This document shows positions 7,097 through 63,863 of a DNA stretch of 64,000 nt, piece after piece (the first letter of the stretch is position 1; each line of letters begins with the position of its first letter). The stretch is taken from positions 8,322-72,321 of the forward strand of contig BNUH01000006.1 in assembly GCA_025997215.1 (NCBI GenBank), in the 5' to 3' direction. Made by a program: the position numbers and the translations under genes. Source of the stretch: Clostridia bacterium (GTDB lineage: Bacteria > Bacillota_A > Clostridia > Christensenellales > Aristaeellaceae). The notes beneath the pieces were generated by a model. That model made no database searches. It saw nothing but the letters and a program-made list of their open reading frames with translations, and was not told where the DNA came from.

Positions 7097-7936
7097 ATGG
7101 CGGAATTAGCGGTGATATCCAGGGAGACTCAGAATCGGCAGGTTGCATTGACAAACCAGCAAGTGGCACCCGTTAACCAGCAGGCTGCGGTAGAGGACGC
7201 GTCCTCTGAAATCGACCTGGTTGAGCTGTTCTACTATATGCTCGAAAAAGCGTGGATAATCGCGGTGGTCGCTATAGCGGCCGCCGCGATTACCGGGTTG
7301 TATACTCACTACTTTGTGGCCCCCACTTATGAATCCACAGCAATCTTATATGTATTGAATTCTAAAGATTCGGTTATCCAGGTGGCCGACCTGACCGTTG
7401 GCTCACAGCTGACGAATGACTATCTGCAGCTATTCAAACTGCGCACGATCAACGAGGAAGTCATCCGGAATCTTAGTCTGCCATATACCCAGTTGCAACT
7501 GCAGAAAATGGTGACTGTTACCAACCCGACGAATACGCGGCATCTTAGCATTGCCGTTCGCTCAAACGATCCGGATGAGGCGCAGTTGATAGCCAATGCG
7601 TTCGCTAAAGCCGCTCAGTCTACGATCAAAGAAAAGATGAAAAATGACGAACCAACGGAGCTTGAGGCGGCAGTCGCTTCTACAATCCCAGTCGCGCCTA
7701 GTTTGTCTAGGAATACCTTGTACGGTGGACTGGTTGGCGCGTTGCTGGTGATAGGCGTACTGTTCCTGATATTCGTTATGGATGATAAAATAAAATCGCA
7801 GGAAGATATCTCCAAGTATTTCGGCTTGGCGACACTGGCGGTTGTGCCTGTGGTAGGTGTGCTCAATCCGAAAGCCCCTACGCCGACGCCCATCAATAAA
7901 GGAGCGAAGGTTCGCAGGAGGAAGACAAGCATATGA
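7097..7936 (+). CDS. Wzz/CapA-type polysaccharide co-polymerase (BY-kinase modulator)
   Basis: A 279-residue chain-length determinant protein. It has a hydrophobic segment at about residues 52-74 (AWIIAVVAIAAAAITGLY), an extracytoplasmic domain starting APTYESTAILYV, and a second segment near residues 213-232. A basic cytoplasmic tail follows. This is the Gram-positive arrangement in which the membrane modulator and the kinase are separate proteins. It controls polymer length and activates the kinase. The stop codon overlaps the kinase start by 4 nt, so the pair is translationally coupled. The first 40 residues are rich in Gln and Asn, longer than usual before the first membrane segment. Confidence 0.85.
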   Translation: MAELAVISRETQNRQVALTNQQVAPVNQQAAVEDASSEIDLVELFYYMLEKAWIIAVVAIAAAAITGLYTHYFVAPTYESTAILYVLNSKDSVIQVADLTVGSQLTNDYLQLFKLRTINEEVIRNLSLPYTQLQLQKMVTVTNPTNTRHLSIAVRSNDPDEAQLIANAFAKAAQSTIKEKMKNDEPTELEAAVASTIPVAPSLSRNTLYGGLVGALLVIGVLFLIFVMDDKIKSQEDISKYFGLATLAVVPVVGVLNPKAPTPTPINKGAKVRRRKTSI

Positions 7937-8661
7937 ATCAGATCAACTTGACCAAGTTACCAGTGCTGGATTACCCGACGACGGAGGCGCTCAATACCCT
8001 GTGCACAAACATCTCCTTCTCCGGGAAAAGTACCCGTGTTATAATGAATACCAGCTGCCGCGCGGGTGAGGGTAAGTCGTTCCTGACGATGAACCTGATG
8101 CGGGCATTAGCGGGCGAGGGCAAGAACGTCGTTTTGGTTGACGCTGATATTCGCCGTTCGACGATCGTTAAGACATATGCCGAGAATCCTGCACTGAAGC
8201 CGAAGGGGTTGGCTCACTACCTAGCTGATCTGTGCAGCTGGGAGGATATACTCTATCAGACGAATATCGAAGGCGCATACCTCATATTCCATGGCCGTTC
8301 CGTCGCGAATCCGCACGCGCTTCTGACGACGGATAAGCTGAACCAGCTGATAACGCAGTTGTTGCGATCATTCGATATTGTTCTTGTGGATACGCCGCCT
8401 ATCGGGTTGGTTGTTGATGCGGCAGAGATTGCCAAATGCTGTCACGGTGTGTTGCTGACGGTCACGAATGGCGTTATCACGCGCAAAGAATTGTCGGATG
8501 CCGTCGCGCAGATACAGCGAACTGGCTGCCCGATTCTGGGTGTCGTCATGAATAAAGTTACATTCGACACGCATAGTTCACGCAGTCATTATTATAAGAC
8601 GTATTACAGCCACTATAAGAGTGGGTATTACGGGGAAAAAGAGAAGAGTTCGGCTGGCTGA
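7933..8661 (+). CDS. BY-family tyrosine kinase, CpsD/CapB type
   Basis: A 242-residue cytoplasmic bacterial tyrosine kinase. The P-loop CRAGEGKS is at residues 42-49. The second Walker motif VVLVDADIRRS is near residue 75, and the Walker B strand IVLVDTPPIGLV is near residue 150. The tail is a cluster of seven tyrosines (about residues 222-236), the usual autophosphorylation site. Cycles of phosphorylation regulate polysaccharide synthesis through the membrane partner encoded just upstream. AGGAGG precedes the ATG. No glycosyltransferases, flippase or polymerase follow, so the genes building the polymer must lie elsewhere, perhaps at 30-33 kb. Confidence 0.88.
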   Translation: MNQINLTKLPVLDYPTTEALNTLCTNISFSGKSTRVIMNTSCRAGEGKSFLTMNLMRALAGEGKNVVLVDADIRRSTIVKTYAENPALKPKGLAHYLADLCSWEDILYQTNIEGAYLIFHGRSVANPHALLTTDKLNQLITQLLRSFDIVLVDTPPIGLVVDAAEIAKCCHGVLLTVTNGVITRKELSDAVAQIQRTGCPILGVVMNKVTFDTHSSRSHYYKTYYSHYKSGYYGEKEKSSAG

Positions 8662-8733
8662 GAATGCGGCTGAAGTTGGCATTGCTGATTGTTAATTGCG
8701 CCCCGGGGTTTGGTTACGAGGAAACGAAGGATC

Positions 8734-9016
8734 GATTTGCGGTAAAAGGAAGGTCCAGGGGGAACCCCTGGTCGGGGGATCGAAGGGGGCTGAAAGCCCC
8801 TTCGTGGGTGTACGAGGGCAAAGCCCTCGCCCGTGGGGGGATGGGAGATTGAGGCTGTGTATGTTGTAACATCCTCAACCGCCGTGCCCTCCGTAACCCC
8901 GCGCCCGAAGGGGGTCATCAATAAAGCACCGATGAGGCAGTGATCAACGCCAGATGAACCGGGGCGCGGCAGTAACTTGGCAAAAAGAGCGAAGCGTTTT
9001 TTTGCCCAACCTGTGG
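8734..9016 (+). repeat. Left inverted-repeat arm of the beta-helix cassette
   Basis: Contains three hairpins (CCAGGGGGAACCCCTGG, GGGGGCTGAAAGCCCC, GAGGGCAAAGCCCTC), then a spacer not shared with the other arm (about 8840-8870), then the shared inner blocks. The 420-nt gap between the kinase and the beta-helix gene is otherwise empty. The first hairpins could also end transcription of the exopolysaccharide operon. Confidence 0.65.
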
Positions 9017-9082
9017 CGCGTTGATCGGACGGCGCAATCCATGCGTCGCAGACCCTGGGTTATAAGGTTATGAGGCTTTGTG

Positions 9083-10945
9083 CTAAAACCCCATATACAA
9101 ATTCTGGAAAAGCGGCCTCCCTTGCGGATATGTTACCTCCGCCACAAGCTCGCCGTCCTTACCCTGGGTAACATTGAAACAAACGCTGAAAACCATTGGA
9201 TCCAGGTGCATATTCCGGGCATTGGAGCAAACCATCCGCATGGTATAACAATATTCCCCAGGTTCAGGCAGCAGCACCGGACTGAAGGTAACGGTCTCAT
9301 CGCTGTCGTACACCGCGCGCGCAACTAGCTGACAGTTGCAATCATACATCCCGACGAGGAACTTGTAACCATTCGCGCCGCCGTTGCTGCATGTAGTCCA
9401 GCACACGCGCACACGAGCCTGCGCAACGCCAAACAGTGCCGGCGAACCTATATAGTTGATATCATAGTTATTATAAGCGTATATGAATGGCGTGGTCAAG
9501 TGGTGCGTCAATATGTACGGCGCTTGAGCGGCAATGTCCTGCGCGTCGGTCATCGCGTATGGGATGCTGGCATGATTGCCCTTAAAGACGACATCTTCCG
9601 AAACCTGCAGCTGTTCGATGGGCTGGAATGACCTGTATATCCCGCCACCGTCGCGGCCCGCGTCGTTGTACTCCAAATGAGCGTTGCCGGTTATATTAAG
9701 TAATGATAAAGAATTATTTTCGTCAGTAAAAACGTATATCCCGCCACCATCACGGCTCGCGCTGTTATGGTCAATATGAACGCTGTCGGTTATATCAACT
9801 AATGATGAAGAGTTCTCATAAGTATACACATATATACCGCCGCCATCCTGGGTTGCGGTATTATTGTCAACGCGCACGCGATCCGTTATATTAGCTGTGC
9901 CTGACGGTGAGCACGCAAACCATATTCAGCCGCCATTTTCTGCAGTATTATATGAAATCTGCACGTCGTCAGATATCAACAGATCAACTGGCGTGAGTTT
10001 ACTATTCGTCTCGTCAATGTCAGAGCGACGACCGGCTCGATAAATAGACGCGCATATACCGCCGCCTATATTAGCTTTGTTATAAGTAATTTGCGTATTG
10101 CCTGATATTTTTGCATCGACCGCGTTGCCAGTACTAATAGCGCCGCCTCCATAGGTTGCTGCGTTTTTAGTGAATAGGCCTCCGGTTATATGCATATAAG
10201 CATCATAATAGGTTGATAGTGTGTCTATAAAAGAAACGCCGCCGCCGTCTGTCGCTCGATTATTCGATATTGTCCCCCCGTCAATAAGTATCGAACCTCC
10301 GTAGACTAGGATGCCGCCACCCCTAAAATCTGCAGTGTTATTGTCAATTAACGCGCCAGGCTGTACGGTCAAAGTCGAAAACAAGGCATCGTCAGCGGCA
10401 GCAATGCTAATCCCTCCGCCTTCTTCCGCCTTGTTAAATCTTACTATAGCGCCGTCTTGTACCTCAATATTACAATTCCTTCCCTGTAAACCAATAGCGC
10501 CGCCCCATCCCAAGGATTCATTATGTTCCAGTATCGCCCCACTTTGTAATATGATGTCGTTATAGCGACCGTATACTGATACCGCGCTGCTTCCCCAACT
10601 GTGCCTCAAAATAATATTTTCTAGATATAACTCTACATTATCAACATACATAATGTCAATAATATTGCTATTTTCATGCGCGTCCAACGCATATGTATGA
10701 CCAGGCGTACTGGCGATCTTTATTACTTTGTTTGCGCCAATCGCTATCGCCCCATCGCTTGGCCCAAAGTCAATTTGACGGTCTATGTGAATCAGCTTGG
10801 GTTGGCCTTCCAGGGCAGACGTTACCTCGTCCTTGAGATCGGTCAAGTCAATAACGGTCACAGGTTCACCCCAGTCAACCCGCGTCTTGGGAACGCTGGA
10901 TAATGACTGCGCAGGCAAGGTTTCCTTGATCAATGTAGTCGGCAT
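9083..10945 (-). pseudogene. Right-handed beta-helix surface protein interrupted by one in-frame TGA
   Basis: A single reading frame of 620 codons, split by TGA at 9926-9928 into a 339-residue N-part and a C-part with no start site of its own. Residues 80-460 are parallel beta-helix repeats with the recurring pattern N-x-A-x-x-GGGI, as in pectate-lyase-like and Pmp-type surface proteins. The TGA falls where the repeat has a Gly (NGG-stop-IWFAC against DGGGIYVY), so one G-to-T change from GGA explains it. The last 120 residues resemble a Spy0128-type pilin/isopeptide domain (GEYCYTMRM, then FSVCFNVTQGKDGELVAEVTYP). There is no signal peptide or sorting signal. AGGAGG precedes the ATG. A sequencing error is possible. 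Confidence 0.7.
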
Positions 10946-11082
10946 CGCTAAGTCCTCCTTGTTATGCTAGTTCACCTCCCATAATTCATACTGGTTCGCC
11001 GCGCGTATGAAGCATCAGGTCGGTATACTGCTACAAGGTATGAGCCGATATGGTATTGGGTGCAAGGTGGTTGACGATGCTT

Positions 11083-11351
11083 GCGACAGGTTGACGTACA
11101 AGCGGGGGGCAAAAAAACGCTTCGCTGTTTTTGCCTAAAGTTACTGCCGCGCCACTACTACATGGCGTTGATCCATAACTCACCGATAAGTTTGCGCGGC
11201 CCCTTCGGGCGCGGGTTACGGTTGGCACAGCGCTTGTCTCACTACGAGCGACGGGCGAGGGCTTTGCCCTCGTGCACCCACGAAGGGGCTTTCAGCCCCT
11301 TCGATCCCCCGACCAGGGCACAGCCCTGGACCCACTTTTTTACCGTGAATC
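11083..11351 (-). repeat. Right inverted-repeat arm of the beta-helix cassette
   Basis: Reverse-complement relative of the left arm, with the same order of hairpins and blocks but several small insertions, including about 13 nt near the inner end. It fills most of the 440-nt gap between the beta-helix gene and the solute-binding protein gene. Confidence 0.65.
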
Positions 11352-11384
11352 CTTGACTTGCTGTTGCGATTCCATTACATACCC

Positions 11385-12479
11385 TCATCTGACCTGCTCA
11401 ATAGCATCCCGGACACCCGCCGTATCATGCATCACCGCATACAGCGCACGGTCGAAGAACTCCTTCCTAACTCCGCCCCACCCAAACGCGTTAGGCGTAG
11501 CCAGCTCCGTCCGGTAACGCGTCTGCAGCGCTTTCAGCGTAGGCGTTGCATCGCTAGCCTCGACAGCATCCTTCCTTACCGGAATCAGCCCAACACTCAA
11601 CAACGTATCCTGCGCAGCCTTCCCCGTCAACGCCCATATGTATGCCAATGCCATCTCGTCCCGCGCCTTGTCCGGCTCATTCCCCACTTTCCCCACCAAC
11701 AATACCTGGTCACAAAACCCTGACAGCGGTGTCTCAACCCGAAACGGAAACCCCCGTCCCGCATTCACCAGCGCATTGAATCTCCTCGTCTGATCCAGCG
11801 TCCCCACCAAAACGGACACATTCCCGCCAACAAATGTCGAATACGCGCTATCCACCGACACCGTACCGAACCCCTCCGGCTTACTCAACCCCCGCGCCGC
11901 CTCAACGCCCTCTTCCCACCCCAGCAGCGCCGCCATCGGTCCCCCCGCACCAGCCTCTATAACATACCTTGTCTGCTTCTTAACAGGCGGAGGCTCACCC
12001 AGCGCGGTCCCCGCCGGCCACATAGCCTCATTGACTAGCACCGCATACCCGCCCAATGCCACAGGCAGCGCGTACTGCTCATCCATCCACCGCCCCGAAC
12101 GCGCAGCTTCCGACAAAAAACTATCACTATCCGCAAACGGCGTCAGCAACTCCCGCGGATCATCCAGCACCCCCGGCGAGAACACCAGCACATCCGGCGG
12201 CACAGCCCCGTCCGCATCCCACGCCCCCGGCAGCACCCTTCGTATGCTCACATGCACACCCTTATTAGCCTTCTCAAACGCCGCAGATTGCTTCGCCACC
12301 CAACCCGCCGCGCTGCTCGACCAATCCTGGCATACCCACACCCTCAACACACCCTGCCAGCTGCGTTCCCGCATACTCCCGTCCCGGTTAACAGGATATT
12401 GGCTCAACACATCGGGCATCTTCCATATCAGCAAGCCCGTGAGCAGCATACAGCCCAGAGCGATAATCCGCTTGCGCAT
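11385..12479 (-). CDS. Extracellular solute-binding protein
   Basis: A 364-residue periplasmic-binding-type protein. The N-terminal hydrophobic stretch (residues 4-20) looks like a signal anchor; its Cys lies in LGCML, which is not a normal lipobox. The mature part has the family-1 pattern: VLRVWVCQDWSSSAAGWV, AFEKANKGVHVSIRRVLPG, PPDVLVFSPG and YALPVALGGYAVLVN. It probably binds a sugar or similar solute outside the membrane. No permease or ATPase gene is beside it, so it may be an orphan component. AGAGGTGA precedes the ATG. The coding strand is unusually G-rich relative to C. Confidence 0.7.
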   Translation of the reverse strand: MRKRIIALGCMLLTGLLIWKMPDVLSQYPVNRDGSMRERSWQGVLRVWVCQDWSSSAAGWVAKQSAAFEKANKGVHVSIRRVLPGAWDADGAVPPDVLVFSPGVLDDPRELLTPFADSDSFLSEAARSGRWMDEQYALPVALGGYAVLVNEAMWPAGTALGEPPPVKKQTRYVIEAGAGGPMAALLGWEEGVEAARGLSKPEGFGTVSVDSAYSTFVGGNVSVLVGTLDQTRRFNALVNAGRGFPFRVETPLSGFCDQVLLVGKVGNEPDKARDEMALAYIWALTGKAAQDTLLSVGLIPVRKDAVEASDATPTLKALQTRYRTELATPNAFGWGGVRKEFFDRALYAVMHDTAGVRDAIEQVR

Positions 12480-16052: not shown

Positions 16053-16091
16053 GGCGGTGGCGGCGAGTTTTGGTAGAGGTAACGATAGTTT

Positions 16092-16163
16092 GATTTACGG
16101 CAAAAAGGAAGGTTCAGGGCCCTGCCCAGGCGCAGCCCTGGACCTACTTTTTTACCGCAAATC
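16092..16163. repeat. 72-nt element with the same ends as the beta-helix cassette
   Basis: The two ends are inverted repeats of each other: GATTTACGGCAAAAAGGAAG at the left and the reverse complement of GATTTGCGGTAAAAAAGTAG at the right. The middle folds as CAGGG and CCCTG stems. These ends match the outer ends of the cassette at 8734-11351. It looks like an internally deleted relative and may also act as the terminator of ilvA. Confidence 0.6.
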
Positions 16164-16267
16164 AATCTAGCGTTTACCCGTTACTACTCAGCAGCAAGCA
16201 GCTAATGTGAAAAATTCTTCGGGTTTGTGACCTGTTAGGTTGATGACATTGTATTGCCGCGCAGTGA
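16164..16267. other. Intergenic, no gene seen
   Basis: About 100 nt between the small repeat element and the next promoter, without an open frame or RNA fold that I recognise. Confidence 0.4.
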
Positions 16268-19365: not shown

Positions 19366-19440
19366 ATTGTACCTCACCAACAAACCGCCTGTCAACGAGC
19401 TACGGCGGTTTGTTTACAGAATGGTTGCATTTCCTATTCC
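19366..19440 (-). repeat. 75-nt intergenic repeat, copy 1
   Basis: Nearly identical, in opposite orientation, to 49657-49730. Its core is an 11-bp perfect stem, AACAAACCGCC with GGCGGTTTGTT, around a 14-nt loop. It begins 4 nt after the stop codon of the beta-helix gene at 19445 and probably ends that transcript. Confidence 0.75.
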
Positions 19441-19444
19441 AGGT

Positions 19445-21388
19445 CTACGGCTGCCCAGGAGTTGTGCCGCGCGGCTGCTTGCCCGGACGCTGCTGCAGAC
19501 TGGGGTCGGTAGGCAGGGGGGTTGTGTCGAATCCACCGAATCCGCCGAACCCACCGCGCCCGCCTGCTGGAGCGAACGCGCCGCCGCTCTCAGACGCGGT
19601 CGTAAGCGCCGCGTTTGCGTTGATTGCCACATCGAACCGCTTAACATTGTTGACATAAACCGATACGTTTTGACCAGGTTTCAGCTCGGGCGATGAGAAG
19701 CCGGACACCGTGCATGCTACATTACTGACATATGATAGAATCGTATCGCCAGACTGCGCATCCCGCAGTTCGATCAGGCTGCCTTTATCAACGCTTTGGG
19801 AATACTGGACATGCAGCACCGGTTGAGCGGATGCGCTGGAAATGCCGCTAACATATCCAGCTGTAATTAAGCTGCCGCCATTCATAGTAAACGATCCGTC
19901 GACGTCGATAGCAGCTTCCTGCTCCATCGATGGTCCGCTAAGGTACAATTCGCCGCCATTCATAATGATGTTGCCGTCCGCGTCGATCGTATCAGCGCCC
20001 GTAGCGTGGATGATACCACCATTAATCGTCAAGCTCAACGCAGATGCTGTCGAACCGAACCCACCTCGACCCATGGCGTGCTGACTGGCAGTACCATCCG
20101 CGACGTTGAGCGCGTCGTCCGACGCGACGATGGTTATATCGCCGCCATTGATATACAACATCGCGCTTTCAAGACCTTCATAACAACGGCTGATGTTGAT
20201 CACGCCGCCCTCGACGGTCAACACCTTTTCCGCGTGAACGCCGTCGTCGCCTGTCGCGATGTCATATGAACCGCCGTAGATCGTTATCTCGCCATTACAA
20301 TGGATCGCGTCGTCCTGTGTGTCAATGATGAACTCGCCGCCGAGCAGACGGATATCCACGTCAGACTTTAATCCTTTCATGCTCTCACTGGTTGCCGCCG
20401 CGGTTGTGGTTATTGCTGGAACGCCAAACCAACCGCTGTTTCTGTTGCCGCCATTACCCCTGTCGCCCATATTATTTGTGGATAATGGCACCGCCGCCGA
20501 ACCTTCGCCCGTCTTTATGGTATATGTGCCGCTATGTATCAGCAGGGTTGACGTGGCTTGAATGCCATCCTTGCCAGCGTTAATCGTCAGCGTGCAATCC
20601 TCTAATTGGATGTAACCTTTCGCGGAATCATCCTCTTTTGTGGATTTTATCCCATCGCCACAGGAAACAATCGTAGCCGTGACATTCTTCATAGCAACGC
20701 CGTCGCTGCCACGCAATCCTGTGGTAGTTGCTTCGATATTCAACACGCCTCCGGTCATCACAAGATAATCCTTTGCCCACAGACCACGCGCGGCGCTGGT
20801 TACGTTGATCGTGCCATTGCCTGTAATAACCAGATCGTTCTTGGAATAAACGGCGGCTTTATGTGATTTATCAGCATCGTCGGTTTCTTCGTCATCAGTT
20901 ATTGAATCATCATCGCTGGAAGCCAGACCGCCCACAATATTATTCACCGATCCATCCACCGCGATCAGAATAAGCCTCCCGACTTTCTGTCCGTTGATAG
21001 CCGCGCCGGACGCAAACTCGATCGACGCGTTATCCAGCGCGAGGCGAACCGTGTCCTTCTTGTTTGCGTCAATCAACACTTGATGGTTGGTTGTGGTGCC
21101 GCTCAACACATACGTGCCAGCCTGATTGATCAGGATCGTGCTGCCGCTGACCGTCGCGCCTGCTCCATTTATTGTGATACTATCCCCATTCATAGCGATG
21201 TGTGTCGCGTTTGCCGGGATGCTCGCGTCGGAATCGTCGACGGTGAAGGTGTAAAGCGGCTGGATCGTGGCTGCAGCGACAGTTTCAGTCATGCCGCTAG
21301 TCGTTATGCCAAGAGTTAACAGCAGAACTAACGCGCATACGAGCGCTATCAACCTGAATGCGATACTGCCATTTGTTGATTGTTTCAT
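19445..21388 (-). CDS. Secreted Cthe_2159-like carbohydrate-binding beta-helix protein
   Basis: A 647-residue exported protein. Residues 8-40 form a signal peptide. From about residue 75 the chain is a parallel beta-helix with repeats such as AAVYSKNDLVITGNGTINV, RGSDGVAMKNVTAT and DGIQATSTLLIHSGTYTI, the pattern of the carbohydrate-binding family of Clostridium thermocellum Cthe_2159. An acidic insert with repeated D and E follows residue 155 and could bind calcium. The tail is Gly/Pro-rich (GGRGGFGGFGG) and has no sorting motif. It is followed by DUF4956 and VTC genes on the same strand, a known association. Its role with polyphosphate synthesis is unclear. Confidence 0.8.
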   Translation of the reverse strand: MKQSTNGSIAFRLIALVCALVLLLTLGITTSGMTETVAAATIQPLYTFTVDDSDASIPANATHIAMNGDSITINGAGATVSGSTILINQAGTYVLSGTTTNHQVLIDANKKDTVRLALDNASIEFASGAAINGQKVGRLILIAVDGSVNNIVGGLASSDDDSITDDEETDDADKSHKAAVYSKNDLVITGNGTINVTSAARGLWAKDYLVMTGGVLNIEATTTGLRGSDGVAMKNVTATIVSCGDGIKSTKEDDSAKGYIQLEDCTLTINAGKDGIQATSTLLIHSGTYTIKTGEGSAAVPLSTNNMGDRGNGGNRNSGWFGVPAITTTAAATSESMKGLKSDVDIRLLGGEFIIDTQDDAIHCNGEITIYGGSYDIATGDDGVHAEKVLTVEGGVINISRCYEGLESAMLYINGGDITIVASDDALNVADGTASQHAMGRGGFGSTASALSLTINGGIIHATGADTIDADGNIIMNGGELYLSGPSMEQEAAIDVDGSFTMNGGSLITAGYVSGISSASAQPVLHVQYSQSVDKGSLIELRDAQSGDTILSYVSNVACTVSGFSSPELKPGQNVSVYVNNVKRFDVAINANAALTTASESGGAFAPAGGRGGFGGFGGFDTTPLPTDPSLQQRPGKQPRGTTPGQP

Positions 21389-25844: not shown

Positions 25845-26501
25845 ATGGAGGGAGCAAGGAAAGGAGCAAAAGAGACGAGGTACATCATCAAGCAAATACG
25901 AAGAATAAAGGATGCCCGGCAATCATGGAAGACAAAGCACACGCTGGAGGAAATTCTGGTGATAAGTATAGTGGCGATGCTGTGCGGAGCGGATAGCATC
26001 AGCAAGATAGTGCACTTTGCCAAATTGCGGGAAAGATGGTTGAGGAAATATTTACCTCTCCCCAATGGGATACCGCATCGGTTAACGATATGGAGAACGT
26101 TGAGTGCGATGAATCCGAAGGCATTGGAAGAAATATTCAAACGCGCTACACTGGAGCAGAAACTGATTGTCTCCTACTCGCCCAAATATAAGGCGTACCA
26201 GCGTGAGGTTCGGGCGGGGCAGACAGATCGTGCGCAGCGGCTTGTGAACAATCCCTCGCAGTTGAACCGCAAGAAGGCAAGCGACCCGCGGTGGTTTGTG
26301 GAACAGACACATATAACGCCTAATAGACAGGTCGCCAAGGGAAAAAAGGCGAGGCTGTCCCAGGAAGTCATAGACAAAGAAGCGCGGTTTGCACAGTGCA
26401 TTTGGCTTAAAGACAGACCAGCATATCATCACGAAAAAAAGATGGCGCTCATACAAAAGCAGAGCAAAGACGACAGAGACTGCCGCCGTCGCGGGCAATG
26501 A
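25845..26501 (+). pseudogene. Chimeric transposase remnant
   Basis: The 218-residue frame joins two unlike parts. Residues 1-95 match the N-terminal domain associated with ISAs1-type DDE transposases (HTLEEILVISIVAMLCGADS, then FAKLRERWLRKYLPL and NGIPHRLTIWRTLSAM). From about residue 98 it changes to sequence like the core of another IS4-related group (SPKYKAYQREVRAGQTDRAQ, then DPRWFVEQT). No DDE catalytic triad is complete, and the tail is basic and unlike either family. I take it as a fusion created by deletion between two decayed elements. It has no obvious terminal inverted repeats. Confidence 0.55.
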
Positions 26502-49530: not shown

Positions 49531-49683
49531 GCGTATGATCTCAAGGAGGATTGGAACATCGAGGACCAGGCATGGTATACGACCACTTATCTGAAGTATG
49601 TAATCCTGCTAAGGCGCGATGGCAAGGTGCTGGCATTACTGCCAAACTCCCGAGCCGGAATAGGAAATGTAACCATTCTGTAA
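49531..49683 (+). pseudogene. Small protein-like fragment, probable gene remnant
   Basis: An open stretch of 50 codons after a TAA reads YDLKEDWNIEDQAWYTTTYL and on to LLRRDGKVLALLPNSR before stopping inside the 75-nt repeat. It looks like protein sequence but has no ATG, GTG or TTG with a ribosome binding site (AAGGAGG is followed 8 nt later by ATC). I do not recognise a family. It is probably the end of a deleted gene. Confidence 0.3.
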
Positions 49684-49730
49684 ACAAACCGCCGTAACTC
49701 GTTGACAGGCGGTTTGTTGTGGGGTACAAT
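49657..49730 (+). repeat. 75-nt intergenic repeat, copy 2
   Basis: Matches the reverse complement of 19366-19440 with about five differences. It has the same hairpin, AACAAACCGCC with GGCGGTTTGTT. It lies 40 nt before the zinc-operon membrane gene and would isolate it from upstream transcription. Confidence 0.75.
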
Positions 49731-63561: not shown

Positions 63562-63713
63562 CGGTAGTGCCGCACCAATTGTGTAAACCCATCACCCATA
63601 AAGAAGCGCCCAGCCAGGACAGCACCCGCCGCAGCGGAAGTAGGTTCTCGGAGCCAGAGGCCCGTTCCCCCTGCACCACAGCCAGAACGCAGTCCCGAGC
63701 GAAGCGAGCTTGG

Positions 63714-63835
63714 TCTTGACTGCGCGGCGGGAAACCGCTACGCTGGATATGCCGACGGCGAGAGGGCTTGTGCTTTGCTGATTCCCATCGCCGTCGGCAT
63801 AGCCTGCACAGCGGTTTCCAGCCGCGCAGTCAAGA
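63714..63835. repeat. Long hairpin downstream of the IS256-type transposase
   Basis: Three nested perfect arms: TCTTGACTGCGCGGC (63714-63728) with 63821-63835, GGAAACCGCT (63730-63739) with 63810-63819, and TATGCCGACGGCGA (63748-63761) with 63788-63801. Together they give 39 paired bases around a 26-nt loop. It lies 29 nt past the transposase stop codon. No gene lies within 63562-63863. Confidence 0.75.
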
Positions 63836-63863
63836 CGGACGGTTGGGGGGTCGTGCGTTCCTT

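Follow-up and report, generated by a model that had tools for sequence, protein, structure and literature searches.

In the 64,000-nt stretch of DNA that we analysed (the window), a gene of beta-helix type lies between two inverted arms built of hairpins (Table 1). The sequence-only reading of this locus had described two long inverted arms with the same order of blocks, and the alignment bears this out: used as a blastn query on the window, the left arm recovers the right arm as an inverted match (72.6% identity in 277 columns; E 2.6e-38), and seven colinear blocks of 16-74 nt each, 78-100% complementary, are common to both. The inner hairpins of the two arms are nearly identical. The motif noted earlier at both outer ends is equally real. 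Both carry GATT--CGGTAAAA and GGTCCAGGG, and their homology with the ends of a 72-nt element elsewhere in the window reaches ~15-20 nt past the limits first drawn, to ~8716 and ~11365.

Table 1. The arms, the gene between them, the adjoining genes and the short related element of the window
Feature	Position	Strand	Remarks
P-loop ATPase gene (CpsD-like by eye)	7933-8661	+	Convergent with the enclosed gene
Left arm	8734-9007	+	274 nt; has an outer end, a number of hairpins rich in GC (by eye) and a centre module that ends in GGCAAAAAGAGCGAAGCGTTTTTTTGCCC
Enclosed gene, C-terminal ORF, beta-helix-type repeats	9083-9877	-	264 aa, same frame as the N-terminal ORF; FctA part
Enclosed gene, N-terminal ORF, beta-helix type	9926-10945	-	339 aa; stop is the TGA at 9926-9928; Chlam_PMP repeats
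Right arm	11107-11351	-	245 nt; left-arm modules, order kept, opposite strand
Neighbour gene	11385-12479	-	364 aa; by eye, resembles a substrate-binding protein
Short closed palindrome of the arm family	16081-16174		Earlier 72-nt element (16092-16163) with extended ends

The enclosed gene runs from 10945 to 9083 behind a likely ribosome-binding site, AAGGAGGACTTAGCGATG, and consists of two ORFs in one frame that are split by an in-frame TGA. Pfam places Chlam_PMP repeats in both ORFs and, in the 264-aa ORF, part of the FctA / streptococcal pilin isopeptide domain. Its product may be a surface protein, judging from these domains, and no N-terminal signal peptide was seen by eye. Compared with 5.8 billion proteins, the two gene pieces gave three and four matches, the window's own counted. 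Besides this interrupted gene, the arms enclose no ORF of at least 100 aa. The earlier description of a single beta-helix gene between the arms is accordingly right in that a repeat-protein gene alone is enclosed, and has to be amended in that the TGA divides it. The left arm sits in the gap between the 3′ ends of the ATPase gene and the enclosed gene. Beyond the right arm, the neighbour gene has no Pfam match at E 0.001 and no NCBIfam match at E 0.01.

Folded alone, the left arm shows a modest gain over shuffled sequences (z -2.1, 8/200 shuffles as good). A terminator scan of positions 8600-11500 found three sites against 3.1 expected, no excess in number, and all three touch the arms: the left-arm outer hairpin and a second left-arm site (minus strand), and the right-arm inner end (plus strand). 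Scanning the stretch from the right arm to the start codon of the enclosed gene gave no promoter-like site. At the gathering threshold, Rfam models recover five tRNAs from the window and nothing else.

The 72-nt element was said to have the same ends as the arms, and this claim is borne out. With its ends extended, the element matches its own complement at 77%, and the segment 16076-16181 forms one long hairpin (z -7.2, 0/200 shuffles as good). Alignment of end pieces from the four family ends in the window, one per arm and two from the 72-nt element, gave 33 for the left-right arm pair and 42-55 for the other five pairs. Without gaps, the outer ends of the two arms agree at 82% over 45 nt, and they agree with the 72-nt element at 84% (right arm) and 80% (left arm). 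By these alignments the window arms appear about as alike as any two copies of the family, so the likeness of their outer ends does not decide whether they form a pair.

We then turned to related genomes. Five loci matched the neighbour gene: one at 27% identity, and four at 64-68% in MAGs labelled Oscillospiraceae. The genomes of these four, which we call G001-G004, encode an IF3 that is 79-83% identical to that of the window; these MAGs presumably stem from termite guts. The hairpin pattern of the arms has exact matches in four of eight genomes (89+89 in G003, a draft of ~2.9 Mb with 178 in all, 18+26 in G002, 5+5 in G184 and 0+2 in G016) and none in G001, G004, G046 or G037, while a reversed-pattern control gave zero in all eight. 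Those matches in G184 that we examined are arrays of simple hairpins, and both in G016 are single hairpins. Three exact arm patterns had zero matches each in viral contigs.

Longer queries reach less far. At E 0.001, the whole left arm matched one of G001-G004, namely G002 (80% over ~70 bases, E 1.4e-8), and did not match G003, so it is the hairpin core, together with the sequence of hairpins after it, that links the family. Outermost ends differ between species, and the hairpin core is common to the relatives. Searched against 308 genomes of G002's family, with two candidates scored per listed genome, the left arm matched two (G002 and G184) at E <= 1e-6; this search overlooks family members, since G003 with all its exact hairpins gave no match.

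The arms thus belong to a repeat family that occurs in both closed and single forms in relatives. In G003, whose ends read TGGAGGAACAA...GGTCCAGCG, the forms are palindromes of ~75 nt like the 72-nt element of the window, closed elements of ~280-470 nt, and single halves. Closed gene-free elements of G002 and G003 together span ~110-520 nt, and G002 has five exact closed pairs with 79-519 nt between hairpins. The single halves in relatives adjoin other genes. Among eight stretches that were scored single, five (L103, L106, L107, L110 and L112) run from an outer end through hairpins to a centre hairpin and then stop, and the window arms are built like these. Two more (L108, L109) are halves without a comparable centre, as are, L073 aside, six other halves (L075, L079, L081 twice and L086 twice), and in L111 the element is closed, though its far end has decayed. 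When 11 G003 copies, closed or nearly so and one of them at a contig end, were inspected by eye, no clear target duplication showed in their flanks.

Larger closed copies vary in their middles. One closed repeat of G002 (L102, contig C43, 6721-7239) holds three similar centre modules in tandem, which suggests growth by module duplication. Two others, L083 (G003 contig C6, 7154-7619) and L101 (G002 contig C36, 7170-7672), are symmetrical, and their poly-G/poly-C middles may have arisen as assembly errors at palindromes. Both G002 and G003 are drafts that break at these repeats; in G003, a family end lies within 700 nt of the contig edge at 32/48 left and 15/22 right edges, and family copies seem to fragment draft assemblies.

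With crude ORF-based gene calls, the closed elements of G003 lie in convergent gaps in 7 of the 11 that could be classed, compared with 54/299 background gaps, a lean that would fit a terminator-like side role. By the same calls, the 16 single ends of G003 comprise nine in tandem gaps, four in convergent and three in divergent ones, and their inner sides have no lean, facing gene starts in 7/15 and gene ends in 8/15.

If arms of this family carried genes, pairs of ends pointing at each other across a gene should recur. Ends in G003 were located with one end sequence at E 1e-3, a search that decayed ends can escape, in 65 stretches covering ~1.09 of 2.9 Mb; the choice of 25 of them was guided by the pattern list or the neighbour gene, and that of the other 40 by contig number. 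These 1,087,367 bases contain 104 ends, comprising 26 closed pairs (52 ends), 36 ends at contig edges and 16 scored single. At least five of the 16 turn out to be closed, their partner being short or decayed (C2 6109, C6 17411, C35 43089, C36 10280 and C51 9265). Successive ends are separated by 700 nt or more in 36 cases: 27 '-+', seven '--', one '++' and one '+-'. The excess of '-+' arises largely from contig edges. None of the 36 is an interval of the cassette type ('+-') at 0.7-12 kb; the sole '+-' interval is longer than 12 kb.

A bracketed gene that had been lost in assembly predicts contigs with a lone '+' end at their start or a lone '-' end at their finish. Such edges were absent from G003 (0/48 left, 0/22 right), a count that contigs too short for binning would escape. 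Among the 44 exact ends of G002, the '+-' pairs comprise the five closed elements plus a single pair 29.5 kb apart, with no others and therefore no cassette-type interval at 0.6-29 kb; a looser end search over 193,740 bases of this genome added no further cassette-type pair. The further paired-end copies that the sequence-only reading looked for thus exist, closed and gene-free, in G002 and G003, and the arms are not a repeat that is never found as paired ends. Target duplications, which it also looked for, were not clearly seen.

The history of the enclosed gene can be followed through the gene next to it. In G046, a homologue of the neighbour gene (56% identical) has 109 nt behind it, in the same orientation, a 433-aa ORF that contains similar repeats and lacks arms. 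This ORF is the one match in G046 to the window protein at E <= 1e-5, with 32% identity over 100 residues of repeats. Pfam assigns to it a Flg_new domain alone, with no Chlam_PMP and no FctA; the one Chlam_PMP match of G046 at E <= 0.01 is located elsewhere. The common position behind the neighbour gene is no more than suggestive of orthology between this ORF and the enclosed gene, since the similarity covers 100 repeat residues at 32% and the only domain is Flg_new. Behind the neighbour gene, G002 and G003 have a maf-like gene and G016 has an acyltransferase-like ORF (named by eye). The closest G002 counterpart of the enclosed protein is encoded not far from the end of a contig, and the 9.3 kb around it are free of any family end.

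We favour the reading that two single repeat copies flank a resident, interrupted and decaying gene, to which we assign a probability of roughly 0.63; the bracket itself is probably ordinary. The arms would be two separate halves of a modular, hairpin-rich intergenic repeat of REPIN- or MITE-like kind. The mobile unit of such a repeat would be the closed palindromic doublet of ~75 to ~500 nt, which would depend for its spread on a trans-acting enzyme, and single halves would be remnants that stay beside genes. One half would have settled downstream of the beta-helix-type gene, in the convergent gap, and the other in the gap upstream of that gene, each probably arriving separately; because the halves sit in gaps on both sides of the gene, the arms look like a bracket. 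The gene may be an older resident of the locus that is now interrupted by a stop codon, and the arms may act locally as transcription terminators at most. This agrees best with an alternative raised at the outset, that intergenic repeats flank the gene by chance, given the single halves beside other genes and the lack of any gene-bracketing pair in the parts of G002 and G003 that were searched. Two observations argue against separate halves, however. The arms match over their full length, in both outer end and centre, and stop at about the same inner point, which independent remnants need not do; the halves listed above as lacking a comparable centre show as much. Furthermore, it is uncommon for two single halves to lie within 2.6 kb of each other in this orientation, to judge from the 1.09 Mb of G003, which yielded 16 single ends, at least five of them closed elements.

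The shared centre would be explained if a closed symmetrical element had been opened by insertion of the gene, or if the gene had been captured once between the arms, with no later mobility in either case. Two closed elements, those of G003 C6 and G002 C36 (L083 and L101) described above, carry centre modules in both arms, and opening such an element would give the geometry of the window. The middles of both are, however, the poly-G/poly-C tracts that may be artefacts, and the similar gene behind the same neighbour gene in G046 has no repeat beside it, which counts against this history if that gene is an orthologue. On balance we regard an opened element as rather unlikely.

Still more doubtful is the view from which this analysis began, in which the whole bracket is one non-autonomous element with long inverted ends that carries the beta-helix-type gene as a passenger and is moved by a transposase in trans. 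It would account for inverted arms that are colinear over their full length and for the absence of any other ORF of at least 100 aa between them, and the family does make closed paired-end units in relatives. What it does not account for is the want of cassette-type pairs in the searched 1.09 Mb of G003 (0.7-12 kb) and among the 44 exact ends of G002 (0.6-29 kb), the presence of similar genes without arms in G046 and G002, and the lack of a clear target duplication in the 11 G003 copies. As a non-autonomous element the repeat survives in part, as a dispersed MITE-like family whose inverted ends close into elements in relatives; the gene as mobile cargo finds no support in the relatives searched.

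A variant in which MITE- or REPIN-like halves captured a surface-type beta-helix gene, and could now be moved as a unit by an enzyme acting in trans, seems to us improbable. If it were true, loci or strains could exchange repeat proteins; a literature search found no such gene-carrying cassette reported for this lineage. Very improbable is a role of the arms as recombination sites that invert the gene for phase variation: inverted repeats do surround a gene of a repeat-protein family, but overall arm identity is just 72.6%, without gaps the longest inverted match reaches 74 nt (82%), and no recombinase was seen by eye among the window ORFs of at least 200 aa.

Pneumococcal BOX repeats are modular. 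Like BOX and RUP, the family described here is intergenic with modules in variable number, as in the three centre modules of L102, and unlike them it is palindromic; this likeness is one of description, not of sequence. REPINs, inverted REP doublets mobilised by RAYTs, offer a second comparison, in which closed inverted doublets are the mobile form and single copies are remnants (Bertels and Rainey 2011, PMC3116915). The likeness lies in many inverted doublets that form hairpins outside genes and in singles read as remnants. The modules here are longer, at ~75-520 nt with several hairpins, and their outer ends vary between species. Prokaryotic MITEs are likewise short, non-coding and dispersed, with terminal inverted repeats; as a difference from them, no clear target duplication was seen in 11 G003 copies, and no parent transposase was identified in a search that covered the Y1_Tnp family.

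A RAYT as mobiliser was considered and rejected. Its gene (Y1_Tnp, PF01797) was found in one of seven genomes, G184, with none in the drafts of G002 and G003, which are the richest in the repeat, and for this reason we do not file the family as a REPIN. By analogy, the family may nevertheless work like a REPIN or MITE. A family of palindromic repeats built of modules, found in MAGs labelled Oscillospiraceae with 178 exact hairpins in one draft, seems to us worth recording; we noticed no paper on it in a literature search for which subscription journals were mostly out of reach.

The window contains further repeats and one piece of a mobile element. An N-terminal transposase piece (25845-26501; DDE_Tnp_1_assoc, E 4e-26) adjoins a tRNA cluster, in surroundings without arm ends by eye. 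An inverted repeat at 63713-63836 has 49-nt arms that are 90% complementary, with 26 nt between them. Two inverted 68-nt copies, at 19378-19445 and 49652-49719, are 94% alike, and each contains ACAAACCGCC..GGCGGTTTGT together with a promoter-like TTGACA-TACAAT (by eye); they are perhaps a shared operator-promoter.
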